A DNA stretch of 64,000 bases from assembly GCA_009268125.1 (NCBI GenBank), contig WBOU01000017.1:62001-126000 (forward strand), read 5' to 3'. Source of the DNA: Chloroflexia bacterium SDU3-3 (GTDB taxonomy: Bacteria; Chloroflexota; Chloroflexia; Chloroflexales; Roseiflexaceae). Of this stretch, positions 29,505 to 56,063 are shown in pieces (position 1 is the first letter of the stretch; every line of letters starts with the position of its first letter). Made by a program: the position numbers and the translations under genes. The notes under the pieces were generated by a model, which saw only the letters and a program-made list of their open reading frames with translations, did not search any database and was not told the DNA's origin.

Positions 29505-29894
29505 GTGGACCGCCAACGTTCTGCCCTCATGACTACCCCTCCGCTGGACGCCGTTGCCGATGACCAGCAACGGCTTACGCTTGGACAGGCGCTGCTCGGC
29601 GCAGAGCGCACCGGTCAGCTTTCCCCTGCTGCCTGGCCGCTCCTTCGCGATATCCTCCTTGCCTCAAACGATCCGGCAGTGCTCGCGCTGGTGGCCTTGC
29701 TGCGGGCGTGGATGCAGGCCCGCCAGATGGTGATGACGGCGTACCAAGATCTTGAGGGCGGTATGGCAGCGGTTACTGCTGCCCAGGATACACCGCACAT
29801 ACTGGCTGATGCTGCTGCCCAGCTCTCCATGCGTGCGGATGAGCTGGCCGCCCGCGCACGTCAGCTCGCTGATTTGGAGCGCGAGCGACGATGA
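29505..29894 (+). CDS. small helical protein of unknown function
   Basis: A GTG start at 29505 with AAAGGA about 9 nt upstream is preferred; an ATG at 29529 is an alternative. The product is about 129 aa, soluble and helical, with a C-terminal coiled coil (QLSMRADELAARARQLADLE). No family is recognised. It overlaps the next gene's ATG by 4 nt and so belongs to the operon that leads into the C25 peptidase. Confidence 0.55.
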   Translation: MDRQRSALMTTPPLDAVADDQQRLTLGQALLGAERTGQLSPAAWPLLRDILLASNDPAVLALVALLRAWMQARQMVMTAYQDLEGGMAAVTAAQDTPHILADAAAQLSMRADELAARARQLADLERERR

Positions 29895-31855
29895 TCCCCC
29901 TCCGCTGCACCCTTCCCCTCTTCCTGGTCGTCAGTCTTCCGTGGTTTTCACCGCCCCACGCCAGCCCGCCGCTTCCTGTGGCCGCCCGTGTCGTCGCGCC
30001 TGGTCAGGTGGTGGTCTCGGACACCCAGCTCCAGGCAGCGGGCTGGTCGCTGCCGCTCGATCGCGCGCGCGTCACGCTCACACGCCAGGGTACGACCCTG
30101 CCGCTCACCGACATCGGCGACGGCTTCGCGTGGGTGGCCCCGCAGGCGGGCACGGCCTGGCTGTCGCTCGCGGACGTCCCGGCCCCGCGCCAGGCGCTGC
30201 CCGCGCGGCTGCCCACGCCGCTCACCTGGTCGCCCGCTGCGCGGTATGACCGTCACACCCAGACGGCGGCGGGCGGGAGCTGGTGGGCGGGCGAGCTGCG
30301 CGGGGATGCGGCGCTGAGTGCCACGCTCATGCTGGACACCGCCATTCCAGCGGGCACGCCGCTCCGGGTGCAGGTGCGGGCCACGGCGGCGGGCAGCCAC
30401 GCGGTGGCGGTGGCGGTGGACGGCCAGCCGCTGCCCACGCTGCGCTGGAGCGATGCTACCCCCCAGGTCGTGACCCACACCCTGACGCTGGGGGCGCACG
30501 CGGCGGGGCCGCTGCGGCTCGACCTCGCGCAGGCGGTGGCGGGCGATACGGTCCTGGTGGCGTCAGTGACGTTGCCCACGGTCTTCCCACTGGCCCCGGC
30601 GCTCCCTACGCCCTCCCTGCGCCCTGCGGTCAGGGTGCCTGCCGACGCCGCCCAGGCGGATTTGCTCATCCTGTCCCACGCCGACTTTCTCCCCGCGCTC
30701 GCGCCCCTGATCGCCGCCCACGCCCAGCGCGGCGAGCGGGCGGTGGCCGTGGATGTGCAGGCGGCCTATGACGCGTATGGTGCGGGCGATCCCGCCCCGG
30801 ATGCGATCCGCGCGCTGATCCGTGCGCTCCAGCCCCGCGCGGTCCTGCTGGTCGGGGCCGGGTCGGTGGCCACGGGCGCGGCGGCGGACGCGCGGCCCAC
30901 GTTCATTCCGCCTTACTTGGTGGTGCTGCCGTTCGATGGCGAGACCGCCTGCGATAGCTGCTATGGCCGCCTCGCGGCGGGGGATGTGCGCGCCCAGGTG
31001 GTGCCCGACATCCCCGTCGGGCGGCTGCCGGTGCGCACGCTGGCCGAGGCCGAGGCGGTGGTGGCCAAGACCGCCGCCGCCATCACCGCCGCACCGGCGG
31101 GGAGCTGGCAGACCCGCGCGCTGGTGGTGGCCGACAACGATCTGGCGGCAGATGGCACGCCCGACCCCGCCGGGCCGTTCAGCGCGACGGTGGCCGCCGC
31201 TCTGGCGGCGCTGCCGCGCGGGATGACGGCCACGACGCTGGTCTATGCGCCGGATCAGGCCCAGGCCAGCGTCATGTGGGAGCCGGATGTGGCGCGGCTG
31301 CGCTGTCGGATGTTCCGGGCCTTGGACGGCGGGCGTGCGAGCGACACCGCCTGCGCGCCGAATGCGGCAGATGCGCGCGGGGTGGCGCTGTGGGTGTATG
31401 TGGGCCACGGCTCGCCCTGGCAGTGGGGCGCGACCGAGGCGGGGGCGGCCACGCCGTACCTCTGGTATCTCTACGACGCCGACGCGCGGCGGAACGGGGC
31501 GCAGCTGCCGATCCTGCTGGGCATGACCTGTCTGAGTGGGGATTTCGCCAACCCGGTGCTGGAGACGACCGACGAGCGGCTGGTGCTGCGGCCCTCGGGC
31601 GGGGTGCTGGCGGCGTTGAGCAGCACCGGGGAGGGTGTGAACACGGGCCACCAGGCCCTGCTGCCTGCGGTGGTGGGGCAGCTCTACGCGCCGACGGGCG
31701 ACCGCAGCCTGGGGGCGGCGCTCCTGGCGGGGCTGCGCGCCCTGGGGGTGGGGCACGCGGATCAGGCGTATACGTTCGGCATCCTGGGCGACCCGCTGGT
31801 GGGGGTGCCGTGGGTGCCGCAGGGGACGGCGTATCTGCCGCTGGTGACGCGATGA
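29891..31855 (+). CDS. secreted C25 (gingipain-like) cysteine peptidase
   Basis: The 654-aa product has a signal peptide (LFLVVSLPWFSPPHA), an N-terminal beta-rich region of about 220 residues, then the C25 catalytic domain. His506 is in VYVGHGSPWQWG and Cys547 in LLGMTCLSGDF, the spacing and context of the gingipain His-Cys dyad. The C-terminus is TAYLPLVTR, a tail type shared with two other secreted proteins here (35333 and 35916). Family members cut after Arg or Lys, or process cell-surface proteins. Given the surface-protein genes nearby, maturation of those proteins is a reasonable inference. Confidence 0.85.
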   Translation: MIPLRCTLPLFLVVSLPWFSPPHASPPLPVAARVVAPGQVVVSDTQLQAAGWSLPLDRARVTLTRQGTTLPLTDIGDGFAWVAPQAGTAWLSLADVPAPRQALPARLPTPLTWSPAARYDRHTQTAAGGSWWAGELRGDAALSATLMLDTAIPAGTPLRVQVRATAAGSHAVAVAVDGQPLPTLRWSDATPQVVTHTLTLGAHAAGPLRLDLAQAVAGDTVLVASVTLPTVFPLAPALPTPSLRPAVRVPADAAQADLLILSHADFLPALAPLIAAHAQRGERAVAVDVQAAYDAYGAGDPAPDAIRALIRALQPRAVLLVGAGSVATGAAADARPTFIPPYLVVLPFDGETACDSCYGRLAAGDVRAQVVPDIPVGRLPVRTLAEAEAVVAKTAAAITAAPAGSWQTRALVVADNDLAADGTPDPAGPFSATVAAALAALPRGMTATTLVYAPDQAQASVMWEPDVARLRCRMFRALDGGRASDTACAPNAADARGVALWVYVGHGSPWQWGATEAGAATPYLWYLYDADARRNGAQLPILLGMTCLSGDFANPVLETTDERLVLRPSGGVLAALSSTGEGVNTGHQALLPAVVGQLYAPTGDRSLGAALLAGLRALGVGHADQAYTFGILGDPLVGVPWVPQGTAYLPLVTR

Positions 31856-32490
31856 CGGGCATGCAGACACAGCTTGCGCTGGTAACGCAGCGGCCAGGGA
31901 TGAAGGCGCGCTACGCGGCGGCGGGCGTGGCGGTGGCGGTGTACCCGGTGCAGGAGGGCGGCCACTGGCCGCGCATCCCGGATGAGTTGCCGATCGTGCT
32001 GGATACGGTGGGGATGCCGCCGGAGCTGCTGATCCAGTTGCTGGCCTGGGTGCCGGACACGCTGGTGGTGATCGCCGTGCCGGAGGCCTTGCTGACGCTG
32101 CGGCTGCTGGCGATGAGCCAGGATGTGCAGCTGGTGTTGCCGGATGACCCCAACGCGCTGCGGCAGTGTCAGCGCGTTGTGCCGAATCTTATTCCAGGTG
32201 GTCAAATGGGCTGGATGATCCCGCCGCCGCTGGCGCTGGCCCCGCAGCCGGATCGGCTGCGGGTGCTGGCTGCGCTGCGGGTGCTGGCCGCGCTGCGTGA
32301 GGCGCAGACCATGCAGGCGGCAGCGAAAAGGAGAGGTGTGTCCAAGGCAACGTTGAGTCGGCAGCTGGCCGCGCTGCGTGCGGCGCTGGGTTTGCCGCCG
32401 GGCCGGGAGAAGCGTGATCGTCCGTCGGTGCATGCGGCGCAGATTCTGGAGTGGCTGGCGCAGGGGTGCGAGCGTGAGCTGGCGGCGTAG
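31852..32490 (+). CDS. atypical receiver-like protein with C-terminal HTH
   Basis: The ATG at 31852 overlaps the peptidase stop (ATGA). The 212-aa product looks like a receiver fold: strands QLALVTQRP, LPIVLDTVGMP (Asp51 at the phospho-acceptor position), TLVVIAVPEAL and VQLVLPDDPN. The acidic pair of the first strand is missing. The C-terminus (AAKRRGVSKATLSRQLAALR) is a helix-turn-helix. It may be a phosphorylation-independent or unusual response regulator. No matching kinase adjoins it, although GHKL-like and receiver-like genes follow at 34180-35278. Confidence 0.6.
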   Translation: MTGMQTQLALVTQRPGMKARYAAAGVAVAVYPVQEGGHWPRIPDELPIVLDTVGMPPELLIQLLAWVPDTLVVIAVPEALLTLRLLAMSQDVQLVLPDDPNALRQCQRVVPNLIPGGQMGWMIPPPLALAPQPDRLRVLAALRVLAALREAQTMQAAAKRRGVSKATLSRQLAALRAALGLPPGREKRDRPSVHAAQILEWLAQGCERELAA

Positions 32491-32501
32491 GAGGTGGGGC
32501 G

Positions 32502-33215
32502 ATGTGTCTGATGTGGTGCCATGTGCAGCGCTGGGTGGTGGATAACGACCTGCCGTGTGACGGGTGCGCGTTGGGCCAAGCGGCGCGGCTACCGTCATCG
32601 TGGGCGTGTGACACCTGTCGGCATGGGCAGGGGGGGATGTGCACGCTCACGCGCGAGGCGCAGCCGGTGGCGGGGCGCTGCTGCCACTGGCAGATGGTGC
32701 CGCGTGCGGAGCGCATGCTGGTGCTGGGGGATGACCAGCTCGCGCCGTGGCTGCGCGGGGTGGGTGGGGTGGCGGCGGTGTTTTTGGCCTCGCCAACCGC
32801 GCCGCCGCTCCAGCGGGATGCGGCGGGCCAGGTGGTGGTCGCGCTGGATGACCTGAGCGTGCCGCTGGTGTATGGGGTCGCGGCGGCAGGGTGGGATGCG
32901 GCGCTGGGCTGGGGTGCGGATGCCCCTGCGCTGGGCTGGGAGCCGCCGCTGGACGCGGTGCGGCAGCAGGCGATTAGCGCGTTGCTGGACGCGCTGGAGG
33001 TGGTGAACCCGTCCCCGCTCGGCGTGGCGCTCACGCATCTGCATGAGGCGCTGGCCCAGGCGACCGTGCCGCTGCCTGCGGGGTGGGCGGCGCTCGTGGC
33101 GGACCTGCTGGCGCTGGGGCAGGAGCGCGCGGTGGGCGATGCGGCCCTGTTGGCGCAGCTGGCGGCGGTGGCCCGCGTGGCGGCTAGGACGACGGAGGAG
33201 ACACGGCCATGCTGA
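32502..33215 (+). CDS. Cys-rich N-terminal protein of unknown function
   Basis: The first 61 residues of this 237-aa protein contain nine cysteines (2, 6, 19, 22, 36, 39, 47, 60, 61), including CxxC pairs at 19/22 and 36/39, plus His7, His41 and His62. This suggests zinc or an iron-sulfur cluster. The remainder is Ala/Leu-rich and helical. It overlaps the MinD/CooC-like ATPase by 7 bp. Pairing with that ATPase recalls metal or cluster carrier systems, but this is only a contextual idea. No family is recognised. Confidence 0.6.
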   Translation: MCLMWCHVQRWVVDNDLPCDGCALGQAARLPSSWACDTCRHGQGGMCTLTREAQPVAGRCCHWQMVPRAERMLVLGDDQLAPWLRGVGGVAAVFLASPTAPPLQRDAAGQVVVALDDLSVPLVYGVAAAGWDAALGWGADAPALGWEPPLDAVRQQAISALLDALEVVNPSPLGVALTHLHEALAQATVPLPAGWAALVADLLALGQERAVGDAALLAQLAAVARVAARTTEETRPC

Positions 33216-33988
33216 TCGCGCTGGCGGGGAAGGGGTCGAGCGGGAAGAGCACGCTGGCGGCGGTGCTGGTGGACGCGCTGGCGGCCCAGGCCGGGGTGCG
33301 ATCGCTCATCGTCGATGCGGACCCGCACCAGAGTTTGTGTATGCTGATGGGGGTTCAGCCGCCGCATACCTTAGGCACGCTGCGCAGCCAGTACGAGCGG
33401 GCGCTCATCACGGGGCGGGACGCAGCGCTGCGCCCGGATGAGGGCCGGGTGGCGTTTGCAGAGCGGCTGCTGGGAGAGGAGGCGCTCGTGTGTGGGTCGC
33501 GGCGGGACGTGCTGGCGCTGGGTCGGTGGGAGCTGGCGGGGAGCCAGTGCACGCCGAACCGAGTGCTGGGCTACGCGCTGGAGCAGCTGGTGCCGCGCTA
33601 CCCGCTGACCCTCATTGACCACGAGGCGGGGATCGAGCCGATCGGGCGGTTTGGGACGGCCCTGGATCGGCTGCTGGTGGTGGCGACGCCGGAGGCGCTG
33701 AGCCTAGATGTGGCAGGGCAGATCCTGGCGCACGCCCGCGCAGTAGGGCGGACGGTGCGGGATGCGCAGCTCATCCTGAATCGGGTGAGGCCCGATGATC
33801 TGACCGATGAGACAGTGTTGGACGCACTCTGGCAGTTGGAGCGCTTGGGCATGCCGCTGGTGTTGACCTTGCCGGAGTCGCCCGCGCTCCAGCAGTGCAG
33901 TCGCCGACGGCTCGGCCCGCAGGCGCTTCCTGCGGATGAGCCGTGGCGACGGAAGCTCATGGCCGCGCTACCAAGGTTGCTCGGCTAG
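33209..33988 (+). CDS. MinD/ParA/CooC-type deviant Walker ATPase
   Basis: The 259-aa product starts MLIALAGKGSSGKSTLAAVL, the deviant Walker A (KGxxGKST) of the SIMIBI class. Switch regions follow as LIVDADPHQSL and YPLTLIDHEAGIEPIGR, where a His replaces the usual Asp-x-Pro-x-Gly-x pattern (IDHEAG), as in CooC-like nickel-chaperone ATPases. ParA-like use in positioning a T4SS or plasmid (VirC1-like) is the other possibility. A terminator follows. The co-encoded Cys-rich protein favours a metal or cluster role slightly. Confidence 0.75.
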   Translation: MLIALAGKGSSGKSTLAAVLVDALAAQAGVRSLIVDADPHQSLCMLMGVQPPHTLGTLRSQYERALITGRDAALRPDEGRVAFAERLLGEEALVCGSRRDVLALGRWELAGSQCTPNRVLGYALEQLVPRYPLTLIDHEAGIEPIGRFGTALDRLLVVATPEALSLDVAGQILAHARAVGRTVRDAQLILNRVRPDDLTDETVLDALWQLERLGMPLVLTLPESPALQQCSRRRLGPQALPADEPWRRKLMAALPRLLG

Positions 33989-34013
33989 ATCGACTCGACC
34001 ATCGGCGCGATAT

Positions 34014-34056
34014 GGTGGCGACCAGGGGCAACCCTCGGTCGCCACCGTGTGTTTTT
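34014..34056 (+). terminator. intrinsic terminator after the ATPase gene
   Basis: GGTGGCGACC (34014-34023) pairs with GGTCGCCACC (34037-34046) and is followed by GTGTGTTTTT. It separates the 29505-33988 operon from the duplicated promoter cassette. Confidence 0.7.
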
Positions 34057-34063
34057 GGGGGGA

Positions 34064-34159
34064 TTTAGTACTTTTGCTAGCACCCCCCGGTACCTCAGCA
34101 TGCAAAATTGATACTTAGCAGTGATTTTTTGGCGTTCTGGCTTGCTATGCTGGACGTGG
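34064..34159 (+). promoter_or_regulatory. duplicated promoter cassette, copy 1
   Basis: This 96-bp AT-richer segment matches 45142-45237 at 94 of 96 positions; the only differences are two G/A changes. It includes an extended -10 (TGC-TATGCT, -10 hexamer 34146-34151), a poor -35, a T6 tract and internal related motifs (TAGTACTTTTGCTAGCA and TGATACTTAGCA). The first gene begins 20 nt later. Conservation far beyond the core promoter suggests binding sites for a shared regulator. Confidence 0.75.
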
Positions 34160-34179
34160 CTGATAGAAAAGGAACGGAT

Positions 34180-34650
34180 ATGAACGTGATGCTATTGACT
34201 GATGGGCCAGGGCCATGGCAGGAGCGACTGGAGCAGGCGCAGCGGCCCGCGCGCGCGGTATGGCGCGTTGGGCGGAAAGATGGGAGCGGGTGGGAGCGGG
34301 TGGGGCCGGGCGCAGACCCGTGGGAGACGCCAGCGGCGTGGGATATGTGTGTGATGGTGCAAGAGCGGCAGCGGCAGCATCTGCCGTTCATGCTGCGGAC
34401 CGCACCCGAGATCCCCATCCTGCTGATCACACCGTGGGTGACGGCGGCGCAGGCGCAGGTGACGCGGATGCGCTGGGTGCGGGTGATTTGTCCGCCCCGG
34501 CACGCGGCGGAACCGGGGCGGTTGTCGGACCTGCTGGCGATGGTGGCGGCGCTGCGCGCGGGCGCGATCACGTTGGGAAATGACCCGACGGGGCGACACC
34601 CGCGCCGTCGGCAGCAGCCGAATGGGAGGTGCTATGTATACGGTGCGTGA
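34180..34650 (+). CDS. pseudo-receiver-like protein
   Basis: AAAGGA precedes the ATG at 34180 by 6 nt. The 156-aa product shows alternating strands and helices like a receiver (MNVMLLTDGP, WDMCVMVQE, PEIPILLITPW, WVRVICPP, then LSDLLAMVAALR). The phospho-acceptor position (VMVQER) has no Asp. A basic tail follows (RHPRRRQQP). It is the first gene after promoter cassette copy 1 and overlaps the next gene by 17 nt. A degenerate signalling protein is inferred. Confidence 0.5.
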   Translation: MNVMLLTDGPGPWQERLEQAQRPARAVWRVGRKDGSGWERVGPGADPWETPAAWDMCVMVQERQRQHLPFMLRTAPEIPILLITPWVTAAQAQVTRMRWVRVICPPRHAAEPGRLSDLLAMVAALRAGAITLGNDPTGRHPRRRQQPNGRCYVYGA

Positions 34651-35278
34651 GGACGAGCAGGCGGTGGTGACGGCGGTGGTGCGGTGGCTGGAGCAGAGCG
34701 CGGCGCGGCGGCGGGGGCTGGCCCCGACGGAGCCGTATCGGATGCAGCGGACCGACACGCTGAAGATGCTGATCGAGGCGGAGGAGGCCGGACGGGTGCT
34801 GCTCGGGCTGCTGGTGCAGCTGCCGCATGAGGGGGCGAAAGCGATGCTGGGCAGTTTGGTGACGACGATCCAGACGGTGGTGACGGTGTCGTGCAAGGAC
34901 CACGAGGCCGCGCCGCTGATCACCTCACGGATGCAGCGGGTGGCGGTGTCGGCGGCGGGGGCGGTGCTGCTGCGGGACGCGCTGGCGATGTTGCTGATTG
35001 CGGCGCTGGATGACGATGCGGGGGAGTTGGAGGTGCGGCTGGAGCGGGCGGCGGAGGGGGCATGCCTGACGGTGGCGTGTGACCGACCGGGTATTCTGGA
35101 CCCGGTGCCGCTGCTGGCGGCGCTGCGGGCGGAGGTCGAGGCCCACGGCGGGAGCTGGGTGGGCGGGCCGACGCCGTATGGGGTGATGCAGGAGCCGGTC
35201 GCGACCTATGACGAGATCTGGGCGGGCGAGCCGATCCCGTCGGGCGAGAGCTGGCAGGTGCAGGTGCGGATTGCCTAA
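34634..35278 (+). CDS. GHKL/histidine-kinase-like ATPase domain protein, degenerate
   Basis: GGGAGG lies 4 nt before the ATG at 34634. The 214-aa product resembles a kinase core without input or membrane parts. A helical DHp-like segment (EAEEAGRVLLGLLVQLPHEG) contains His but no recognisable H-box. Then come AVLLRDALAMLLIAALDDDA, LEVRLERAAEGACLTVACDR and PGILDPVPLLAALRAEVEAH, which follow the N-box/G-box order of a HATPase with several substitutions. Together with the receiver-like gene upstream it looks like a simplified or dead two-component pair placed under the shared promoter. Confidence 0.55.
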   Translation: MYTVREDEQAVVTAVVRWLEQSAARRRGLAPTEPYRMQRTDTLKMLIEAEEAGRVLLGLLVQLPHEGAKAMLGSLVTTIQTVVTVSCKDHEAAPLITSRMQRVAVSAAGAVLLRDALAMLLIAALDDDAGELEVRLERAAEGACLTVACDRPGILDPVPLLAALRAEVEAHGGSWVGGPTPYGVMQEPVATYDEIWAGEPIPSGESWQVQVRIA

Positions 35279-35332
35279 GGGACCCATCCGGCTGGCAGTG
35301 GGCTGGCCGGTGGCCAGAGATGTGAGGACCAG

Positions 35333-35899
35333 ATGCGAACATCGACGACATGGCTGGTGACGGCGGCGGCGGTAGTGGTGGCGGTGGTGGGGATGGTGGC
35401 AGCGCCCGTGCGGGCGGCGAACCCGGCCATCTTTGGGCGGCACTGGATCGACGCGAACTGCAACGGGGTGTATGACGATGGCGAGGCCCCGATCACGGGC
35501 GTGTCGGTGTACCTCTACCGCTTCGGGGCGGATGGGGTGCCATTCACCTCGGATGATCGCCAGCTCCATGTGCTTGGCCTGTACTACGGCGGGGCGAAGA
35601 TGGGCTGGTATGAGGACGATGCCGACTCGTCGCGGATGCTGACGGATGAGCGCTACCGTCTGTCGATCCTCCAGGGTGGGCGGCCTGCGGGCTATATCCC
35701 GACGAAGTACCGCGCGGGGGACGACCCCAGCCGCTGGTCGTCGCTCCAGAGCAACTGGACGACGGGCGACCTGCCCAACAAGGGCTTTGCGATTGATCCC
35801 AACGCTAGTGTGACGGGCGGCAACATCGGCATCGCGCCGGAGAGCTGCACGGCGCAGTGGTACACCGAGCATGTGTACCTGCCGCTCACAACCAAGTAA
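35333..35899 (+). CDS. secreted SdrD B-like single-domain protein with YLPL tail
   Basis: The 188-aa product has a signal peptide (VTAAAVVVAVVGMVAAPVRA) and a single SdrD B-type domain with the calcium-loop phrase HWIDANCNGVYDDGEAPITG. It ends VYLPLTTK. The following large adhesin contains a closely related B domain and a similar tail, so the two probably share a surface location or export route. Confidence 0.75.
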   Translation: MRTSTTWLVTAAAVVVAVVGMVAAPVRAANPAIFGRHWIDANCNGVYDDGEAPITGVSVYLYRFGADGVPFTSDDRQLHVLGLYYGGAKMGWYEDDADSSRMLTDERYRLSILQGGRPAGYIPTKYRAGDDPSRWSSLQSNWTTGDLPNKGFAIDPNASVTGGNIGIAPESCTAQWYTEHVYLPLTTK

Positions 35900-35915
35900 C
35901 CAAAAGGACATGGCA

Positions 35916-38900
35916 ATGACACGTACACCGACGCTGCGGCGCTGGGGGGTAGGGCTTGGGGGGCTGCTGCTGGCCGCAGCGCTGACCCCCCAGGCGGCGG
36001 CCCCTCCGCTGGCCACGGCGCAGATTGACAACATGCAGCCCGCGCAGGCCTACGCCTCGGTGGTGGACTGCATCCGCTCGGGGGCAGATCAGGGCGCGAT
36101 CTCATCATTTTCGCCGCGCTTTGTGACGACCTGCTACGCCTCGCGGCTCCATGAGGGCGGTTACAACGCGCCGGGTGGGGACGAGGGCAATGGGGATGCG
36201 GCAGCGACGGAGCGCTCGATTGTGGCGTTCGGGGATGCGACCCCGGACAACAGCGCTGACCTGTACGATAGCCCGACCAATGACCATGCGACCATGGCCA
36301 CGGTGGGCGCGGTGGGGAGCACCTATGGCCTGGCCTACCAGACCGGGACGAACCCCGCCGCGCCCGCGCTGGCCCGCGCTAGGCGGCTCTTTGCCGGGGC
36401 CTACCACAAGCGGCTGACCCGCTTCGGATCGGGTGGTCCCGGTGCCATCTATGTGATTGATCGCGACGCCAGTACCACCGGCGTGTATGTGCAGATCCCG
36501 GCGGTGGTACCGGGGCCAGTGGGCGCGCCGGGGGACGCGGGCGACGGCAGCCTGGCGCGCTTCCCGAACGACCCGGCGGGCAACAACGCGTTCACGCCGG
36601 AGATGGGCGGCCTGCACCGCTCGGGGGATGACGACCACGAGGAGGGCTATGTCGGCAAGGCGGGCCTGGGCGATGTCGAGCTGGACGCCCAGGAGCGCTA
36701 CCTCTACACGGTCAACCTGAATACCCGCAAGGTCATCCGCATCGACACGTGGTCGGCCTCTCCACAATCTACCCTGACCACCATGGCCGACCCGCTGGCG
36801 CTGAACCCCTGCGCCAGCCAGGGCGGCAGCGGCAACTACCGCCCGTTCGGCCTCATGCTCACCTCCAGCGCGCTCTACCTGGGCGCGGTCTGCTCGGGGG
36901 AGAATGGCGGGGACGTGGCCATGCGCGTGGACCGGCTCGACCTGGGCACGAACAGCTGGTCGAACGCGCTGGGCACATCGCTGAGCGCGTATGCGGCGCA
37001 GCGCGGCACCTGGAACGGCTACAACCTGGCCTGGAATGCCTGGGCCTCGAACGGCGGCACGACCTACAGCGCGCCGCAGCCGATGGTGGCGGGCCTGGCC
37101 CTGGATGAGGCGGGGAACCTGCTGATCGGCCTCCGCGATCGCTACGGCGACCTGTCCTCGAACGGGCGCTATGTGGGCGGGGAGAGCCAGGGCGCGAGCC
37201 AGGGCGATCTACTGATCGCGCCATCCAACGGCGTGGGCGGCTGGGGCGCGCCGCAGAGTGGGGCCGGTGAGACCTTCGACGACGGGACCAGCGCGCAGGG
37301 CAGCTACCCCAGCGGCTGGCTGCATGGCGAGTCCACCTGGGGCGCGCTCGACTACGTGCCGGGCACACACGCGGGCGGCTACGGCGGCGAGGTGATCGCG
37401 ACCGCGATCTCGCCCTACCGCTCGAACGCGGGCGGCACCGCCTGGTGGAATACGTCGTCCGGCGGCGCGGCCACGGCGCGCGAGGAGCTGTATCAGACCA
37501 ACTCCTCGGACAAGAACACCTTCCAGAAGGCCGCCGGGCTGGGCGACCTGGAGCTGCTGTGCGCCTGGCGCGTGATCGGCGACCGGGTGTGGTTCGACGC
37601 CAACGGCAACGGCGTGCAGGACGCGGGCGAGAACGACATCAACGGCGTTCCGCTGCAGCTGCTGGATGCCAGCGGGAACGTGATCGCGAACGTGACCACC
37701 GGCAGCGTGGGCGGGATGAGCGGCAACTACCGCTTCTACGTCGATCCGTTTGCGACCTACACGGTGCGCGTGGACGGCTCGGCGGCGGCGCTGGACGGCC
37801 TGTCGCTGACCACGCCCAACGCGGGCGGGAACGACGCGACCGACAGCGACGCGGACACCCAGGGCCGGATCGCCATCCCGACGGCGGGCAACCACGACAT
37901 CAACCTGACCTACGACGCGGGCTATGTGGATGGTGCGAATGTTCGCGTGCAGAAGACCGGCCCCGCGCTCGCGCTGCGGGGGGAGGCCGTGACCTACACG
38001 ATTGTGGCCACGAACGACGGCCCGGCCTCCGCTACGAACGTGCGTGTCACCGATACGCTGCCCACGGGCCTGACCTACAGCGGGGCCACGCCCGCGCCGA
38101 CCAGCACCAGCGGCCAGGTGCTGACTTGGAACCTGGGCACCATGGCTGCCGGAACCTCGACGACCATCACGGTGGTGGCGACCGTCGGCGCAGCATCGCT
38201 GGGCAACTACACCAATCGGGCCGACATCACCACCGACACGCCGAACGACACGCCCGGCGATAACACCACCACGACCACGGTGCAGGTGGTGCGGCCCAGC
38301 CTCTCGATCACCAAGACCGGCCCGGCGGTGGCGGCGGCGGGCAGCCAGCTGGCCTACACGCTGGCCTATCAGAACAGCGGCGACGCGGTGGCGTCGAACG
38401 CGACCGTCGTCGATACGCTTCCTGCTGGGACGAGCTACCTGAGCGCCAGCCCCGCTCCGACCAGCGTGAGTGGCCAGACGATCACCTGGAATCTGGGCAC
38501 GCTGGCGGTGGGGGCCAGCGGGACGATCACGGTGCAGGTGCGGGCCTCGGCCAGCCTGGCCGACGGCAGCGCCGTGACCAACAGCGCGCAGATCACGACC
38601 ACCACCAGCGGCGATCCGCCGGGTGATAACACCACGACCACCACGACCCAGATCCGGCGGGCGGACGTGGCCATCCAGAAGACCACGACCACGACCTTCC
38701 CGGTCACAAGCGGCACCAGCGTGACCTACTACCTCGACTATAGCAACCGGGGCGGGGTCGCGGCGGCGAATGTGACGATCGCGGACACCGTGCCGTCGCA
38801 GATCACCGGCGTGACCTGGGCCTGCGAGACGGGGTGCAGCGCGTCGGGCAGCGGCAACGCCATCAGCATCGCCATCGGCACGCTGGCGGCGGGTGCGACG

Positions 38901-40475
38901 GGCCGGGTGCGCGTGACCGGGACCGCCACCACCGCGCTGGCCCGCGAGGACTTTACCAACACGGCGACCATCCGCACCGACACGCCCGAGACCGACACCA
39001 GCAACAACACCAGCGCGGTGCCGGGGGCGGTCTGGACCAGCGACGTGCAGCTGATCAAGCAGATGCCGCCGACGGCGGCGGCGGGCGCGGTCTTTACTGC
39101 CACCCTGACCTATCAGAACAGCGGCCCCGCGCCCGCTGCGGGCGTGCAGCTCGTCGATACGCTGCCGACGGGCACGAGCTACCTGAGCGCCACGCTCACG
39201 CCCACGAGCATCAGCGGCCAGACCCTGACCTGGAACCTGGGCACGCTGGCGGCGGGCACGCGCGGGACGATCACCCTCACGCTGCGCAGCGACGCGGCCC
39301 TGGCCGCTGGAACGGCGATCACCAACACCGGCAAGGTCACGACCACCACGCCGGATCGCACGCCGGGGAACAACACCTCGACGAGCACGACCATCCTGGT
39401 CACGCGGGCGGATCTGGCCATCCAGAAGACCGGCCCGGCCCAGGTGACGGCGGGCGATGACCTCGACTACACGCTCAGCTACCGCAACAGCGGGCCAAGC
39501 CTGGCGCGTGGAGTTGTCATAACCGACACGCTGCCGAGCGACCTGACCTTCGTGCGCGCCGTGCCCGCGCCGACCACGAACGCCCAGGGCGTGGCCATGT
39601 GGGCGGTGGGCGATCTCGCGCCGGGGGCCTCGGGGGTGATCACGGTGACGATGGCCAGCGACTACGACCAGCTGGAGGCTACGCGCGCGGTCACAAACAC
39701 CGTGGCCGTGGGCAGCCCAACGCCCGACCCCACGCCCGGCAACAACACCTCAACGCATACGGTCGCGGTGGAGACCGCCGACCTGGTGGTGGAGAAGACC
39801 ATGCCCGCGACGGTGATGCCCGGCGACTCCCTCGTGGCGACGCTGGCCTACCGCAACGACGGCCCCGCGCCCGCCACCCGCGTGGTGCTGCGGGATGTCG
39901 CGCCGGAGGGGCTGACGGTGGTGGCGACCGATCCGGTGGCGACCGGGCCGGGGCTGCGCTGGAGCCTCGACCTGCTGCCGCCGGGGGCGAGCGGCGTGGT
40001 GACGGTCACGTTCCTGGTCGCGCCGACGGCGGCCCCAGGGACGGTCTACCGCAACCAGGCGATCATCTCGACGCCGACCGCCGACCGTGATCCGACCAAC
40101 GACAGCGACTGGTCGGAGAGCCGGGTGATCCCGCGCCCGATCACGGCGGTCACGCTGGCCTACCTCATGGTGGCATGCCAGGCCGACGGCAACCAGGTGC
40201 GCTGGGGCACGACCGCCGAGCAGCAGACCGACCACTTCCGCGTGGAGCGAACCACCAGCGCCAGTGCCAACGGTGCGAAGGTGATCGGTACCGCGTCCAG
40301 CCAAGGCAGCCGGGGCGGCGACTACGCGCTCTGGGACCGCCCGCCGCCCGAAGGGCGGGTGTACTACTGGCTGATCGAGGTGGACGCGAACGGGCGCGAG
40401 CAGCGCTACGGCCCGGTGCCCAGCCAGACCACGACCGCGACCACGCAGATCTACCTCCCGCTGGTGCAGCGGTGA
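35916..40475 (+). CDS. giant surface protein: B domain plus six DUF11 repeats, YLPL tail
   Basis: The second ATG (35916) is preferred because AAAGGA lies 7 nt upstream. The 1519-aa product has an N-terminal signal (GLGGLLLAAALTPQAAA) and a beta-propeller-like region of about 500 residues. An SdrD B domain follows near residue 554 (GDRVWFDANGNGVQDAGE). Six DUF11 repeats start near residues 675, 795, 917, 1042, 1166 and 1289, each with (I/V)xKTxPA, a DTLPxGxxY phrase and a TxTPDxTPGNNT ending. A fibronectin-like domain and the tail QIYLPLVQR close the protein. DUF11 arrays form long stalks on bacterial and archaeal surfaces. Adhesion or mating-pair contact is inferred. Confidence 0.85.
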   Translation: MTRTPTLRRWGVGLGGLLLAAALTPQAAAPPLATAQIDNMQPAQAYASVVDCIRSGADQGAISSFSPRFVTTCYASRLHEGGYNAPGGDEGNGDAAATERSIVAFGDATPDNSADLYDSPTNDHATMATVGAVGSTYGLAYQTGTNPAAPALARARRLFAGAYHKRLTRFGSGGPGAIYVIDRDASTTGVYVQIPAVVPGPVGAPGDAGDGSLARFPNDPAGNNAFTPEMGGLHRSGDDDHEEGYVGKAGLGDVELDAQERYLYTVNLNTRKVIRIDTWSASPQSTLTTMADPLALNPCASQGGSGNYRPFGLMLTSSALYLGAVCSGENGGDVAMRVDRLDLGTNSWSNALGTSLSAYAAQRGTWNGYNLAWNAWASNGGTTYSAPQPMVAGLALDEAGNLLIGLRDRYGDLSSNGRYVGGESQGASQGDLLIAPSNGVGGWGAPQSGAGETFDDGTSAQGSYPSGWLHGESTWGALDYVPGTHAGGYGGEVIATAISPYRSNAGGTAWWNTSSGGAATAREELYQTNSSDKNTFQKAAGLGDLELLCAWRVIGDRVWFDANGNGVQDAGENDINGVPLQLLDASGNVIANVTTGSVGGMSGNYRFYVDPFATYTVRVDGSAAALDGLSLTTPNAGGNDATDSDADTQGRIAIPTAGNHDINLTYDAGYVDGANVRVQKTGPALALRGEAVTYTIVATNDGPASATNVRVTDTLPTGLTYSGATPAPTSTSGQVLTWNLGTMAAGTSTTITVVATVGAASLGNYTNRADITTDTPNDTPGDNTTTTTVQVVRPSLSITKTGPAVAAAGSQLAYTLAYQNSGDAVASNATVVDTLPAGTSYLSASPAPTSVSGQTITWNLGTLAVGASGTITVQVRASASLADGSAVTNSAQITTTTSGDPPGDNTTTTTTQIRRADVAIQKTTTTTFPVTSGTSVTYYLDYSNRGGVAAANVTIADTVPSQITGVTWACETGCSASGSGNAISIAIGTLAAGATGRVRVTGTATTALAREDFTNTATIRTDTPETDTSNNTSAVPGAVWTSDVQLIKQMPPTAAAGAVFTATLTYQNSGPAPAAGVQLVDTLPTGTSYLSATLTPTSISGQTLTWNLGTLAAGTRGTITLTLRSDAALAAGTAITNTGKVTTTTPDRTPGNNTSTSTTILVTRADLAIQKTGPAQVTAGDDLDYTLSYRNSGPSLARGVVITDTLPSDLTFVRAVPAPTTNAQGVAMWAVGDLAPGASGVITVTMASDYDQLEATRAVTNTVAVGSPTPDPTPGNNTSTHTVAVETADLVVEKTMPATVMPGDSLVATLAYRNDGPAPATRVVLRDVAPEGLTVVATDPVATGPGLRWSLDLLPPGASGVVTVTFLVAPTAAPGTVYRNQAIISTPTADRDPTNDSDWSESRVIPRPITAVTLAYLMVACQADGNQVRWGTTAEQQTDHFRVERTTSASANGAKVIGTASSQGSRGGDYALWDRPPPEGRVYYWLIEVDANGREQRYGPVPSQTTTATTQIYLPLVQR

Positions 40476-40535: not shown

Positions 40536-41693
40536 ATGAAGCGTTCTTCTCTTCTCCTGACCGCTGGGCTGCTGGGCGCGCTGGCCGTGGGCGCGATCAG
40601 CCTGGGCAGCCCGGCGCTGCCAGCGGCCCACGCGGCCCCGGCGCGGAGCGTCGGCACGCCGACACCGCCGCCCGCACCCACTGCCGAGCCGACGGATGTG
40701 CCGCCGACCCAGGTGCCACCGACCCAGGTGCCGCCGACGGCGCGCCCGACTGAGGCCCCGACCACGCCGCCGAGCGCGGTCCCCTCCGAGGTGCCGCCGA
40801 CCGAGGTGGCCAGCTCGCCCACCCCGACCCGCAAGCCGGAGCGCCACCGTGACCCCGACCCGACGGCCACGCCCACGACCACGCCGCTGCCGACCGCCAC
40901 GCCCGAGGTGCCGTGGACTACTGAGGTCGAGATCCACAAGGTGGCCGACAAGACCCAAGCGCTGCCGGGTGACACCGTGGTCTACACGCTGGTTGCCCGG
41001 AACACGGGCCAGCAGGATGCCTTCGACGTGGTGGTGAGCGACCCGGTGCCCGCCCAGCTGGCCGTGACCAACCTCCAGAGTAGCCAGGGCGATATCGTGG
41101 TGCACGGCCAGACGGTGACGGCCTACCCCGGCACGCTGGCGGCGGGCGGGACGGCCACCTACCGCATCACCGCGCAGGTGCGCGAGGGCACGGCGGCGGG
41201 CGATATCCCCAACACCGCGCGGATCACGACCACGACCACGGGCGACACCCCCGGCAACAACACCAGCACGGTCACGCTGCGCGTGCGGGTGCCGGATCGG
41301 ACCATCCAGCGCGCCCCCGCGCCGCGCATGCCTGTGACCGCCGCCGGGGACGAGGTGCCGCTGGTGGCCACGGTGGCGGCCATCCCGCCGACGGGCGTGC
41401 TGGGCATCTTCGGCGGCATGCTGGCCATGCTCGGCGGCGTGCTGCGCTGGGGCCTGCGGGGCCGGATGCGGCAGCAAACGGATGGGCCGGAGACCGCTGC
41501 GCCACGTGCTGCCGCTGAGGGTGTCGGCTACGTGCTGCCGGTGGGCGCGGTGGCGGGGCCGCCGCAGCTGGGGCCGGAGCTGCCGCCGCCTGCGCCGCCC
41601 GCACCGCTGCCGCCGCTGGTGGCGGTGGACCGCGACGAGGCCATCCGCGACGCGCTGCGGGATCTGGGGGCCGAGGATGATGCGCTGGTCTAG
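40536..41693 (+). CDS. DUF11 surface protein with Pro/Thr stalk and membrane anchor
   Basis: The 385-aa product has a signal peptide (LLGALAVGAISLGS), a stalk of PPTQVPPT-like and TPTATPE-like repeats (residues 40-125) and one DUF11 domain (VEIHKVADKTQALPGDTVVY, ending TGDTPGNNTSTVTL). A membrane helix follows (GVLGIFGGMLAMLGGVL), then a Pro-rich cytoplasmic tail of about 95 residues (YVLPVGAVAGPP, RDEAIRDALRDLG). A cytoplasmic tail of this size could dock with the secretion machinery. The next gene overlaps its 3' end. Confidence 0.75.
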   Translation: MKRSSLLLTAGLLGALAVGAISLGSPALPAAHAAPARSVGTPTPPPAPTAEPTDVPPTQVPPTQVPPTARPTEAPTTPPSAVPSEVPPTEVASSPTPTRKPERHRDPDPTATPTTTPLPTATPEVPWTTEVEIHKVADKTQALPGDTVVYTLVARNTGQQDAFDVVVSDPVPAQLAVTNLQSSQGDIVVHGQTVTAYPGTLAAGGTATYRITAQVREGTAAGDIPNTARITTTTTGDTPGNNTSTVTLRVRVPDRTIQRAPAPRMPVTAAGDEVPLVATVAAIPPTGVLGIFGGMLAMLGGVLRWGLRGRMRQQTDGPETAAPRAAAEGVGYVLPVGAVAGPPQLGPELPPPAPPAPLPPLVAVDRDEAIRDALRDLGAEDDALV

Positions 41694-43736: not shown

Positions 43737-45076
43737 ACGCTGCCTTGATGATGCCCCTTATGATCGTTCTTAGCGGGATGCTGCTTGGCTGTGTGACGCT
43801 GCCGTGGTATCTGGCCAGCCAAGGCACGACGGCCAGCAGCATCCCGCGCTGGGCCTGCCCGACACCCACCCCCGAGCCGTATGGCGAGGATGGCCCCGTG
43901 AAGGGCTATGACGAGGGGATGCCCGACCCGACCACGGGCATCCCGGAGCGCCGCCCCGTCTATTACGAACAATGGGAGCAGGAGGACTTCGATGGCTTGG
44001 GTGCACCCTTCCCGGCTCCCACCCCCTACGTCAAGACCGCGACCGCGTTCTACCTCGGCCAGCTGGTCAACCTCTCCCCGGATCTGGATGTCCGTGTGAC
44101 GGTGGATGCGACCGATATCGTGAGCGGCGAACAGCAGCTCGTGGTGGTTACGGTTGACTGGACCAATCGCGGCGCGTCCTTCGCGTTCTCGCCTGCGCGC
44201 CAGGTGGGGATCAGCGCGCTGAAACGGGCCAGCGGCATTCAGGTGGCGGGGGATGGCTGGCACTGGAGCTTGGCGGCGGCCTCGCGGGCGGCGCAGGCGG
44301 GCTATGAGGAGCTGCTGGATGAGGAGGTCGCTGGCGGCACATCGACGACACAGGTGCCGATCTTCGTGCCCGCTGAGGGTGCGGTGCAGACCGTGGACCT
44401 TGCGCTGGATGTGGCGGCTGCCGCTGATCCGGCGGCCACGCCGCTGCCGGAGACGGGTGAGCTGGGCGGGCTCCATGTGCAGTGGCAGCAGGGGCAGGAG
44501 CCGCATTGCGGCCAGGCGGGGACCGAGGATGCCTCCTATGGCGAGGCCGCGCCAGTGGTCGATGCGCCGCCCCTTCCCGCCGGGACGGATGGGGTGGTCG
44601 CTTTTGCGATGGCCCAGCTTGACCGTCCCTACTGCTGGGGCGGGAAGGGCAATAGCCCGTGCGCAGGCAACCCCAGCATTGCGTTGAAGGATGGTGGTCC
44701 CTACGCGGATCGCTGCCCGGATAAGCAAGGGCTGCCCTGCTGGGATTGCAGTGGTCTCACCTGGGGCGCATACAACGCGGTCGGCGTACCCATCGGGCAC
44801 GGCACGGCCAACCAGAAGAACGAGCCGGTGGTGTGGCGGGCGGGGAGTGGAGTTGATCCCGCCAGCGTGGCCCAGCCCGGCGACCTGCTCCTGTTTACGG
44901 GCGCGAATGCGAACGGGCGTCCGGTCGGCTCGATCACGCACGTGGGCCTCTACGCCGGGGATGGGCTGATGATCCACGCGGCCAACTATCCAGACGGAGT
45001 CATTCCCACCCCCCATGTGTTTTCCTCACGTTACTATGCTCCGCTGTTAGTCTTGATCACCCGTCCCGCGCGCTGA
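43679..45076 (+). CDS. NlpC/P60 cell-wall hydrolase with membrane anchor
   Basis: The ATG at 43679 (AAGGA upstream) overlaps the previous gene by 58 nt; 43748 is an alternative start that would leave a lipobox-like MLLGC. The product has an N-terminal anchor (MMPLMIVLSGMLLGCVTLPW), an extracytoplasmic linker domain and a C-terminal NlpC/P60 domain. Cys357 is in CWDCSGLTWG, His421 in THVGLYAG and His433 in MIHAANY, the usual triad. These enzymes cleave gamma-D-glutamyl-diamino-acid peptides in peptidoglycan. In conjugative clusters they play the VirB1-like role of opening the wall, which fits here. Confidence 0.85.
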   Translation: MEDPQYQTLSDRLQAQRRLNAALMMPLMIVLSGMLLGCVTLPWYLASQGTTASSIPRWACPTPTPEPYGEDGPVKGYDEGMPDPTTGIPERRPVYYEQWEQEDFDGLGAPFPAPTPYVKTATAFYLGQLVNLSPDLDVRVTVDATDIVSGEQQLVVVTVDWTNRGASFAFSPARQVGISALKRASGIQVAGDGWHWSLAAASRAAQAGYEELLDEEVAGGTSTTQVPIFVPAEGAVQTVDLALDVAAAADPAATPLPETGELGGLHVQWQQGQEPHCGQAGTEDASYGEAAPVVDAPPLPAGTDGVVAFAMAQLDRPYCWGGKGNSPCAGNPSIALKDGGPYADRCPDKQGLPCWDCSGLTWGAYNAVGVPIGHGTANQKNEPVVWRAGSGVDPASVAQPGDLLLFTGANANGRPVGSITHVGLYAGDGLMIHAANYPDGVIPTPHVFSSRYYAPLLVLITRPAR

Positions 45077-53284: not shown

Positions 53285-53707
53285 ATGGCATACCGACGGT
53301 CGGAGGATCTGGGCGCGTATGGGGAGCGCCGGGTGTTTGGGGTGTTTACGATGACGAACGTGGTGGGGGCGCTGGTGGGGGCGCTCATGGCGTGGAACGG
53401 GGCGGGGCTGCTGGGGCTGCCGGAGCCGGGCTTTGACGGCGCGACGGTGCTGCGCGCGCTGCTGTGCCTGGGTGGGGCGGTCGGCGGCGGCATGGCGACG
53501 ATCCGCTGGACGGGGGTGTCGCTGTGGGATCGGGCGGTGCTGTGGGCGATGTTCCAGCTGCGGCGGCAGCAGGGCAAGACCCGGCTCAGGCCGCAGCTCA
53601 CGGCCACGGCGATCCGGGGTCAGGTGCGCGCGCCGCTGGTGCGGGACGGCCAGCGGTTGGCTGAGGTCTATGACCCGGCGGGGGAGGGCTTCCATGGCGC
53701 AGCCTGA
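53285..53707 (+). CDS. PrgI/VirB3-like T4SS protein
   Basis: GGAGG lies 5 nt before the ATG at 53285. The 140-aa product has two closely spaced membrane helices (VVGALVGALMAWNGAGLLGL and LLCLGGAVGGGMATI) near the N-terminus, then a basic cytoplasmic tail (QLRRQQGKTRLRPQL). This matches the size and topology of PrgI/VirB3 proteins, which accompany VirB4. Its end overlaps the virB4 start by 14 nt. Confidence 0.65.
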   Translation: MAYRRSEDLGAYGERRVFGVFTMTNVVGALVGALMAWNGAGLLGLPEPGFDGATVLRALLCLGGAVGGGMATIRWTGVSLWDRAVLWAMFQLRRQQGKTRLRPQLTATAIRGQVRAPLVRDGQRLAEVYDPAGEGFHGAA

Positions 53708-56063
53708 GCCGGTGGCCTATCACATCACGCCGTTCTCCTTGGACATGCACCCCGAGGCGGATCGCCTGGAGGAGCAGTGGATTCCCTTCTTCGCGGGGCT
53801 GGAGCGCCCGGTGCGGGTGATCGCGCAGACGACGCGCTTTGACCTGAACCGCCCCCGCCAGCAGCTCCTGCATGAGCTGCGCACGTTGGAGGCGACGGCG
53901 GGGAGCTACGCGCCGCTGGCCGAGGCGGTGCTGGCAGGGGCGGGGTACGCGCAGCTGGCCGGGCCGTTGGCCCAGCTCAGCGCGGCGCAGCGGGCGGGGC
54001 TGGACGCGCTGCTGCCGCTGCACCGGCGGGGCGACGCACTGGCCTGGCGGCAGGCGCTGGCGCGACTGGGCCGCCCGCTGTGGCGGAAGCGCTGGCTTCA
54101 GGACTACGCGCGCTACTACCAGCTGCTGGCCGAGCAGGTCGAGCTGCGCGGCCTCGACCACTTCCTGCTGTCGTGGCTGCCCGACGGGGTGCGCTCAGAG
54201 CAGCAGGCCGCGCTGATCGGGCGGGCCTTTGGCACCCCTGCGCGGATCGCGCCGCTCCCGGCGCTGCTGCGCGGGGAGTACGACGAGCGGCGCGACTACC
54301 TAGAGCCGCGCGAGCCGCAGCTGCCGCTGATCGCGCTCCTGGAGGCCGACGACCTGCGTGGCACCTGGTCGCTCTGGACGTTTGCGCGGCTGCTGGATCT
54401 GGATATCGACCTCCACCTGTGTATCGACCTGGTGCCGATGGACCGCACGCGGGCCGAGCTGAAGGTGGACTTTGTGGCGACCGCGACCGAGAACAGCCTG
54501 CGCGACCCCGGCAACCCGCGCGACGTGAAGACCGAGCGCAAGCTGGAGACGGCGCGGGCGTTCCAGGAGCAGGCCGACCAGGGGTTCTACGAGGTGCGGG
54601 CGGTGGTCGCGGTGGAGGGGCGCGACCATGAGCGGCTGGAGGCCAATGTGCGCATGGTGACGGACGCCTGCCGCAGCTTCATGCGGCTGATCCGCCCGCC
54701 GTATGGCCAAGGGCCGCTGGCGCAGTTCTTCACGACCAGGCCCACGAAGCAGATCGACGCCCATGTCAACGTGCGCACGGAGATCGGGCACGGGGCGGCG
54801 GTGATGCTGCCGTTCGGCATCCGCCGCCCGTCCCGCGATGACGGGCTGCTGTGGCTGATCGAGGGTCAGACGCCGATCATGTTCAATCCGCTGCGGGATC
54901 GGGCGGGGCGGAAGCGGGCCGGGCACGCGGTGGTGCTGGGCAAGACCGGCAGCGGGAAGACCTTCGGGCTGTTTGTCTGGGCGATGCGCATGCTGGCCTT
55001 GGGCTGGCAGGTGGTGATCATCGAGCCGCAGGGGCATGCACGGCGCTTTATCCAGGCCTGCGGGGCGGGCGGGGCCTACTACGCACTGGATATGCGGCAG
55101 ACCATCAATGTGCTGGACGCGATGGTGACGCGGGATGTGGATGGGAACCCGCCGCCTTTGGCCGCGCAGATTGCGCAGGTGCTGGGGCAGCTGGCGATCC
55201 TGCTGGGCCACACTGCGCCGAGCGCGAGTGGCGAGGCGGCGTTTGCGCCGCGCACCTTCGACCGGATTGAGGCCGGGCTGCTGGACCAGGCGCTCCAGCG
55301 GGTGTATGCGCCGTGGGCGGCGGACATCGCGCAGATGCGGCCCGAGGAGACGCCGACGATTGCCGATTTGTGTGCGGCGCTGGGCGCGCTCCAGCCCAGC
55401 TATGCGACCGACAAGACCCGCGAGACCCAGCAGCAGCTCCTGGCCGAGCTGGACCTGTATCTGGTCTCGGGGTCGGCGGGGGCGGTCTACAACGGGCGGA
55501 CGACCATTGACTGGGACTTCACGCACGACGCGACGGCCTACGACCTGACGGCGCTTGAGGAGGGGACGGCGCGGACGCTGTACATGGCGAAGGCGTTTTC
55601 GGCCATCAACCACTACGTGCGCACGCGGCCCCACCGCGACCGCCCGCTGGTGGTGATCTTCGACGAGTTCGCGTACACCCTGGGCAAGGCCCCGGCGCTG
55701 GCGCAGTTTGCGGCGGACGCGGCCAAGACCTGGCGCACGTTCAGCGCGATGCTGGTCACGGCGGATCAGGACGCGCACACCTATCTGGGAACGGAGGGGG
55801 CGGTGGCGAGCAGCGCGCTGCGGTCGATCTTCGACAACGCGAGCATGAAGGTGCTGATGCACCAGGACCCCGCGCCCGCCGAGCGGCTGGGGGCGGTGGT
55901 GGATGGCCTCCAGCCGCAGCACGTGCAGGCGATTAAGGCGGCGGGGCTGGGCGATGTGGTGCTGGCATGGAAATCGGACGACGATGCGCGCCAGATCGCG
56001 GAGGTGTTTACGGGGCGGGTCATCCCGACGGAGCTGGAGGGGCGCACCTTTAGCGGGACATAA
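53694..56063 (+). CDS. virB4: VirB4-family T4SS ATPase
   Basis: The 789-aa product has the expected VirB4 layout. The N-terminal half interacts with the membrane complex. The motor domain has Walker A GKTGSGKT (residues 416-423) and Walker B with Asp657-Glu658 (LVVIFDEFAY), with further motifs VVIIEPQGHARR and MLVTADQDAHTYLGT. The start at 53694 overlaps the PrgI-like gene. VirB4 powers assembly and substrate passage through the secretion channel. The gene lies at the heart of the operon and is its surest family marker. Confidence 0.92.
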   Translation: MAQPEPVAYHITPFSLDMHPEADRLEEQWIPFFAGLERPVRVIAQTTRFDLNRPRQQLLHELRTLEATAGSYAPLAEAVLAGAGYAQLAGPLAQLSAAQRAGLDALLPLHRRGDALAWRQALARLGRPLWRKRWLQDYARYYQLLAEQVELRGLDHFLLSWLPDGVRSEQQAALIGRAFGTPARIAPLPALLRGEYDERRDYLEPREPQLPLIALLEADDLRGTWSLWTFARLLDLDIDLHLCIDLVPMDRTRAELKVDFVATATENSLRDPGNPRDVKTERKLETARAFQEQADQGFYEVRAVVAVEGRDHERLEANVRMVTDACRSFMRLIRPPYGQGPLAQFFTTRPTKQIDAHVNVRTEIGHGAAVMLPFGIRRPSRDDGLLWLIEGQTPIMFNPLRDRAGRKRAGHAVVLGKTGSGKTFGLFVWAMRMLALGWQVVIIEPQGHARRFIQACGAGGAYYALDMRQTINVLDAMVTRDVDGNPPPLAAQIAQVLGQLAILLGHTAPSASGEAAFAPRTFDRIEAGLLDQALQRVYAPWAADIAQMRPEETPTIADLCAALGALQPSYATDKTRETQQQLLAELDLYLVSGSAGAVYNGRTTIDWDFTHDATAYDLTALEEGTARTLYMAKAFSAINHYVRTRPHRDRPLVVIFDEFAYTLGKAPALAQFAADAAKTWRTFSAMLVTADQDAHTYLGTEGAVASSALRSIFDNASMKVLMHQDPAPAERLGAVVDGLQPQHVQAIKAAGLGDVVLAWKSDDDARQIAEVFTGRVIPTELEGRTFSGT

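Follow-up and report, generated by a model that had tools for sequence, protein, structure and literature searches.

A putative YLP-type C-terminal surface-sorting tag on exported proteins of Chloroflexota

Tailed proteins of the window and their surroundings

The window, by which we mean the whole 64,000-nucleotide stretch analysed, corresponds to C17:62001-126000 of the 6.76 Mb genome of Chloroflexia bacterium SDU3-3, assembled in 51 contigs. It encodes three exported proteins with a shared C-terminal tail, in a group of surface-protein genes beside a conjugation-type block:

29891..31855, + strand: C25 (gingipain/PorU-like) cysteine peptidase with signal peptide and YLP tail (PF01364, 6.8e-55)
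31832..31855, + strand: tail YLPLVTR plus stop (NF053834, 12.5 bits against a cut-off of 10)
31852..32490, + strand: gene overlapping the C25 stop, C-terminal helix-turn-helix (PF00126, 3.2e-07)
33209..33988, + strand: ParA/MinD-like ATPase of the element (PF01656, 1.2e-12; 47% relative in G058)
35333..35899, + strand: small secreted SdrD_B-like protein with YLP tail (PF17210, 25.0 bits, below the 29.7 cut-off)
35876..35899, + strand: tail YLPLTTK plus stop (no NCBIfam match)
35916..40475, + strand: large SdrD_B/six-DUF11 adhesin-like protein with YWL..YGP segment and YLP tail (PF01345, 1.9e-109; PF17210, 2.7e-22)
40452..40475, + strand: tail YLPLVQR plus stop (NF053834, 17.5 bits, cut-off 10; NF050076, 15.6 bits, cut-off 15)
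40536..41693, + strand: DUF11 protein with signal peptide, IPPTG, membrane helix, RGRMR and about 75 further residues, no YLP tail (PF01345, 9.7e-22)
43748..45076, + strand: NlpC/P60 protein of the element (PF00877, 4.1e-12)
53694..56063, + strand: VirB4-like conjugation ATPase (NF045971, 9.5e-19; TIGR00929, 1.6e-17; both below cut-off)
62958..63959, + strand: Replic_Relax protein (PF13814, 3.9e-12)

Each tail runs in frame to the position that the earlier note on this DNA had given for it (31855, 35899 and 40475), and the signal peptides which that note assigned to all three proteins were recovered both by a simple signal-peptide rule (3/3) and by reading of the N-termini. Its description of the three proteins as unrelated needs a small correction for the 188-aa and 1519-aa pair, both of which match SdrD_B (PF17210; the 188-aa protein below cut-off). 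A broad search of open frames longer than 60 codons ([YFWILVM][LIVM]P[LIVMF].{1,5}stop) found no further tails in the window. The third tailed protein most likely starts at 35916 rather than 35871. The peptidase belongs to C25, scoring 187.3 bits against a PF01364 gathering score of 23; with the PorU equivalog model NF033707 it scores 102.1 bits, below the 420-bit threshold.

The window's gene set is present at 27–51% identity in G058, a genome of family f2, with genes for C25, the small SdrD_B-like protein, the large SdrD_B/DUF11 protein, the DUF11 membrane protein, NlpC/P60, the VirB4-like ATPase, Replic_Relax and ParA. The module of G058 keeps its tails at 27–45% protein identity: FLPVIFAP on C25, VSLPLVVR on the small SdrD_B-like protein (a 27% relative) and VYLPLIRR on the large SdrD_B/DUF11 protein. 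G424, from f4, has two C25–DUF11 sets and two further C25 copies, with tails that have drifted to WVPLVGR, WMPIARR, FLPIVR and HIPMAR. In both genomes the DUF11 membrane protein stays adjacent to the large adhesin-like protein, and a gene of 237–253 aa follows C25 in the same place as 31852..32490, with no blastp match to the window gene. A module of C25, SdrD_B/DUF11 adhesins and a DUF11 membrane protein, new here, is common to the window and two other families. The block beside it appears conjugation-like from its VirB4 match (below cut-off) and Replic_Relax, from which we infer a mobile element.

Elsewhere, in 13/36 C25 loci, the gene next to C25 encodes a protein that has a signal peptide and a helix at its C-terminus. 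An LPxT-like motif, read loosely so as to include LPHAG, LPGAG and LPSSP, is present in 12/13 of these neighbours, DUF11 was found in the C25-adjacent helix gene in seven of the genomes, and one neighbour end passes the LPXTG model (with a few letters added in front of the query).

Stop-codon use was tallied over 459 roughly called genes from 30 stretches of the host genome plus the window. TAG is the commonest (314), followed by TGA (94) and TAA (51). The three tail genes of the window stop with TGA, TAA and TGA, and the element possibly differs from its host in stop-codon use.

Naming, occurrence and dialects of the tail

The motif is not new. NCBIfam already names it the 'YLP-box putative sorting motif' in two models, NF050076 (sort_motif_YLP, 11 positions) and NF053834 (ultrashort_CTERM, 10 positions). 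This is the same C-terminal motif as that of the window tails and, as far as our searches show, only a label. The third window tail passes both cut-offs, the first passes NF053834 only and the second passes none (2/3 tails pass); the dialect tails LPLVQR, FLPIVRR and YLPAVTK fail both. A full-text search of PMC, whose coverage mostly excludes subscription papers, found no description of the tail. The earlier note knew of no characterised pathway, and we found none either, although the motif itself had already been named. New here are its distribution over the phylum with dialects, the exclusion of sortase and exosortase as the general reader, and the keeping of tails in diverged relatives.

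Chance is excluded as the origin of the tail. The DNA pattern TWYNTNCCNNTN-7-CGNTRR has 37 matches in the host genome versus 5 for the reversed pattern, and a stricter form that requires a T-centred (hydrophobic-type) codon after LPx has 29 versus 0. Among 49 host loci read, 35 end open frames of at least 140 codons and the other 14 do not. With the stricter pattern, the host's family f1 without its genus g2 gave 106 matches against 5 controls (7 genomes, the host included) and f2 gave 501 against 45 (23 genomes), in sum 607 against 50. A broader pattern was also tried; it was noisy and near control for most genomes.

The stricter pattern and its reversed control were applied to 400 Chloroflexota genomes. 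A strong excess is seen in f1 and f2, which belong to the window's order, and in genus g8 of f3 (29 vs 3); f46, f29, f42 and f66 show a visible one. At equal genome quality, tails are at control level in g2 (1 vs 5 in 2 genomes) and in f5 and f7. Genus g6 gave 23 matches against 34 for the control with the R-ending pattern; a tail-less status for it was rejected, as an R-only pattern misses its K-ending tails (e.g., YLPLVTK, YLPAVIK). Tails in f29 often read [YF]LPIVRR and those in f46 LPLILR. The occurrence of R-, K- and RR-ending tails in different lineages indicates lineage dialects of a consensus of about seven residues, [YFW][LIVM]P[LIMV][VIL]xR. The earlier note had mentioned similar tails on other secreted Chloroflexia proteins; the tail recurs across Chloroflexota.

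Tails are associated with export. In the host sample (38 tail matches, including a false one) the signal-peptide rule was positive in 29/38 tailed proteins versus 83/421 others (Fisher 2e-12), a correlation that the earlier note had suggested checking, and in 14 other genomes in 32/44 versus 104/493, against a background that is non-random because stretches were picked around tails. Gene calls and signal peptides came from simple scripts, and several predicted starts are wrong. Tailed proteins have a median length of 835 residues, versus 290 for the others. Only 1/81 has a membrane-like segment within its last 60 residues, false by eye, and 2/81 have a lipobox; the layout of an LPXTG substrate, with a membrane helix and basic cluster after the motif, is not found among them. 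Many tails are preceded by Pro/Thr-rich linkers, e.g., TPTPGSGPNSFVYLPLITR, and the pre-tail linker consists of long Pro/Thr repeats such as TTPVTPTATG in the host loci L056, L059, L073, L075, L077 and L079.

Families represented among tailed proteins, from a scan that took in 36/38 of the host's and omitted two, include S8, C25, M4 and M6 peptidases, GH8, amidase, ExeM/NucH nuclease, ELWxxDGT, SdrD_B and DUF11. Three tailed members each match the NCBIfam models whose names refer to myxosortase-, rhombosortase- and T9SS-dependent M36 peptidases. ExeM/NucH relatives have the tail in 3/18 readable Chloroflexota loci and 0/56 readable loci elsewhere (80 loci, 6 unreadable; phylum from record titles, chain ends by a simple rule), an anchor-swap comparison of modest weight. 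Two near-identical tailed proteins (VFLPLLQR) are encoded on contigs C1 and C17, at L051 10001-11773 and L071 9703-10413; the latter copy, just left of the window, is apparently shortened.

Tail conservation in C25 peptidases

A search with the window C25 through 158 genomes of its class gave 48 that match at 1e-40. A recognisable tail follows the catalytic end (GDP) after 11–14 variable residues in 30/30 fetched loci, with one to three extra residues behind it in L276, L278, L281 and L283. Among 19 non-redundant ends, Pro is present in all 19 and always preceded by L/M/V, the first position is aromatic in 15/19 and the last tail column is R/K in 17/19. Across 22 aligned C25s, whose mean column identity is 39%, the tail Pro never varies, and neither do H506 and C547, which we take to be the catalytic pair. 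To judge from these alignments, tails are retained across diverged relatives. One C25 of G341, at L234, is tail-less. A codon test in two genera gave a pN/pS of 0.20–0.25 for the tail versus 0.15–0.18 for the linker; constraint on the tail does not exceed that on the linker, which counts against reading the tail as a sorting tag.

In the predicted fold of the window C25 (mean pLDDT 82.6) the last strand ends at residue 632, and residues 633–654 are without secondary structure. The tail lies about 15 residues past the predicted catalytic fold, with no folded C-terminal domain of the type IX kind. Among solved structures the C25 profile A2 matched PorU best (6za2, 1.4e-31, over 116–834 of 846 positions), with gingipain R at 1.4e-17; the top Foldseek match is also 6za2, at a TM of only 0.36.

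A second, longer type of C25 occurs in L232, L237 and L244 (f3) and in L236, L238 and L242 (f46). Ahead of it lie genes for a PqqD-like protein (about 97 aa), a protein of 300–380 aa and one of 260–290 aa, named by eye, and this gene group may be a peptide-modification cassette. In f3 a sortase gene comes next, followed in L232 and L237 by an IPATG-helix protein. Short C25 end fragments are present in the tail-poor genus g2 (G366:C308:4182-4412 and G439:C1:72106-72339; one has an internal stop). Together with the full but tail-less C25 of G434, they could be a sign that g2 has lost the system.

Proposed role and comparison with known systems

We think it fairly probable, from the sequence patterns above, that the YLP-box is a C-terminal surface-sorting or retention tag on Sec-exported Chloroflexota proteins. 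The helix-free tail stands at the extreme C-terminus, behind either a Pro/Thr-rich linker or a folded domain. In the proposed scheme an envelope receptor or processing enzyme would recognise the free C-terminal end, including its basic final residue, and would then hold the tailed protein at the surface, or cleave and transfer it. In general this reader is neither a sortase nor an exosortase of the classical kind. Three window proteins bear the tag, all of them from the surface module (the PorU-like C25 and the SdrD_B/DUF11 adhesins) beside the conjugation-type block, and we speculate that this module serves cell contact during transfer. The tail occupies the position at which related proteins of other phyla have their sorting tags (proteases, nuclease, adhesins). 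To the earlier note the tails looked like a sorting, anchoring or processing signal, a view supported in part: they proved short, C-terminally fixed, strongly associated with export and recurrent. The extra C-terminal residues behind some tails, the tail-less L234 and the 3/18 of ExeM/NucH count against a sorting tag. The neighbourhood search does so as well: among 998 called genes of 15 genomes, a count to which a G155 stretch without gene calls does not contribute, no plausible reader-type family recurs beside tailed genes, and the recurrent neighbours are either common families (ABC ATPases, dehydrogenases, regulators, glycosyltransferases) or ones that are themselves tailed.

Candidate readers were compared over 40 genomes, 28 tail-bearing and 12 tail-poor, classed manually from pattern and HMM results with G281 and G155 counted as tail-poor despite 4 and 8 weak HMM matches. 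Sortase genes in 38/40 genomes, and the DUF11 proteins with LPXTG-like ends that adjoin C25 genes, would suit tailed proteins that are conventional substrates of sortase or exosortase and carry a degenerate signal. Yet the tail-poor genomes have sortases too, G165 and G333 are tail-rich (17 and 11 HMM matches) without PF04203, exosortase occurs in 1/40 genomes and not in the window's own, and no membrane helix stands by the tail. On this distribution both enzymes were rejected as the general reader, and we regard degenerate sortase signals as highly improbable. The PorU-like C25 might instead be the reader, cutting or transferring tailed proteins at the surface as PorU does while tagged itself. 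Its best profile match to PorU, with which Foldseek agrees, favours this, as does the presence of Pfam C25 in 26/28 tail-bearing versus 0/12 tail-poor genomes, which are phylogenetically non-independent. However, a more sensitive C25 profile still found none in the tail-bearing G147, G034, G255 and G213, which weakens C25 as the sole reader; G426 has a few tail matches (broader pattern) and no C25, and G434 has tails at control level, yet a full C25 that is itself without a tail. The substrate-type domain DUF11 also tracks tails, more weakly (28/28 versus 5/12), so that secretome size confounds the correlation. Together these observations make C25 look like a common client of the tag and perhaps a helper rather than its general reader, and its being the reader is quite unlikely. 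The hint at gingipain-type enzymes and type IX sorting in the earlier note thus holds insofar as a PorU-like C25 co-occurs with the tail, and gives way at the at least four tailed genomes without C25 and at the reverse case of G434. A search for SprA matched 0/13 genomes, and its control genomes were silent too.

Two further explanations do without a sorting enzyme. The tail might dock passively, binding as an extended strand to a surface polymer, S-layer or scaffold, non-covalently and without cleavage. It is short, without a helix and uncharged except at its end, it tolerates small C-terminal additions, and no enzyme is linked to tailed genes; but its strict C-terminal position and mostly basic last residue point to recognition of the end itself, and we consider docking unlikely, if the least so of these alternatives. 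Alternatively, the tail could be a cap against tail-specific or carboxy-exopeptidases and no sorting signal, as its place on many extracellular enzymes and long linkers would allow. A specific reader would better account for the dialects and for the absence of tails from the sister genus g2 and from f5 and f7, and we hold a protective cap to be very unlikely.

A wider form of the sorting-tag reading, to which we give a little less than even weight, is that Chloroflexota possess a C-terminal sorting system without a helix that has so far gone undescribed. Each genome would encode dozens of Sec-exported proteins with the seven-residue YLP tail in its dialects, the candidate reader would be an envelope receptor or transpeptidase other than sortase, exosortase or type IX, and conjugation-type elements would carry a tagged module of their own, as the element in the window carries its own tagged proteins. 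To our knowledge, little is known of how enzymes and adhesins are placed on the surface of Chloroflexota. With a tag so short, tens of substrates per genome and genera cleanly with or without it, this placement becomes a testable question.

The PEP-CTERM/exosortase, GlyGly-CTERM/rhombosortase and MYXO-CTERM/myxosortase tags consist of a motif, a helix and a basic cluster. Like these, the YLP tail is a many-substrate C-terminal tag on the same kinds of enzymes; it differs in having no helix, and exosortase is absent from 39/40 genomes. With LPXTG/sortase it shares an LP within the tail, surface proteins and a basic end, whereas here there is no membrane helix, the motif is at the very end, and two tail-rich genomes are without sortase. 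As in type IX/PorU sorting, the tag is found on exported proteins without a membrane helix, and a PorU-type C25 is itself tagged here; in contrast, the YLP tag is a seven-residue tail rather than a folded C-terminal domain, and C25 is not universal.
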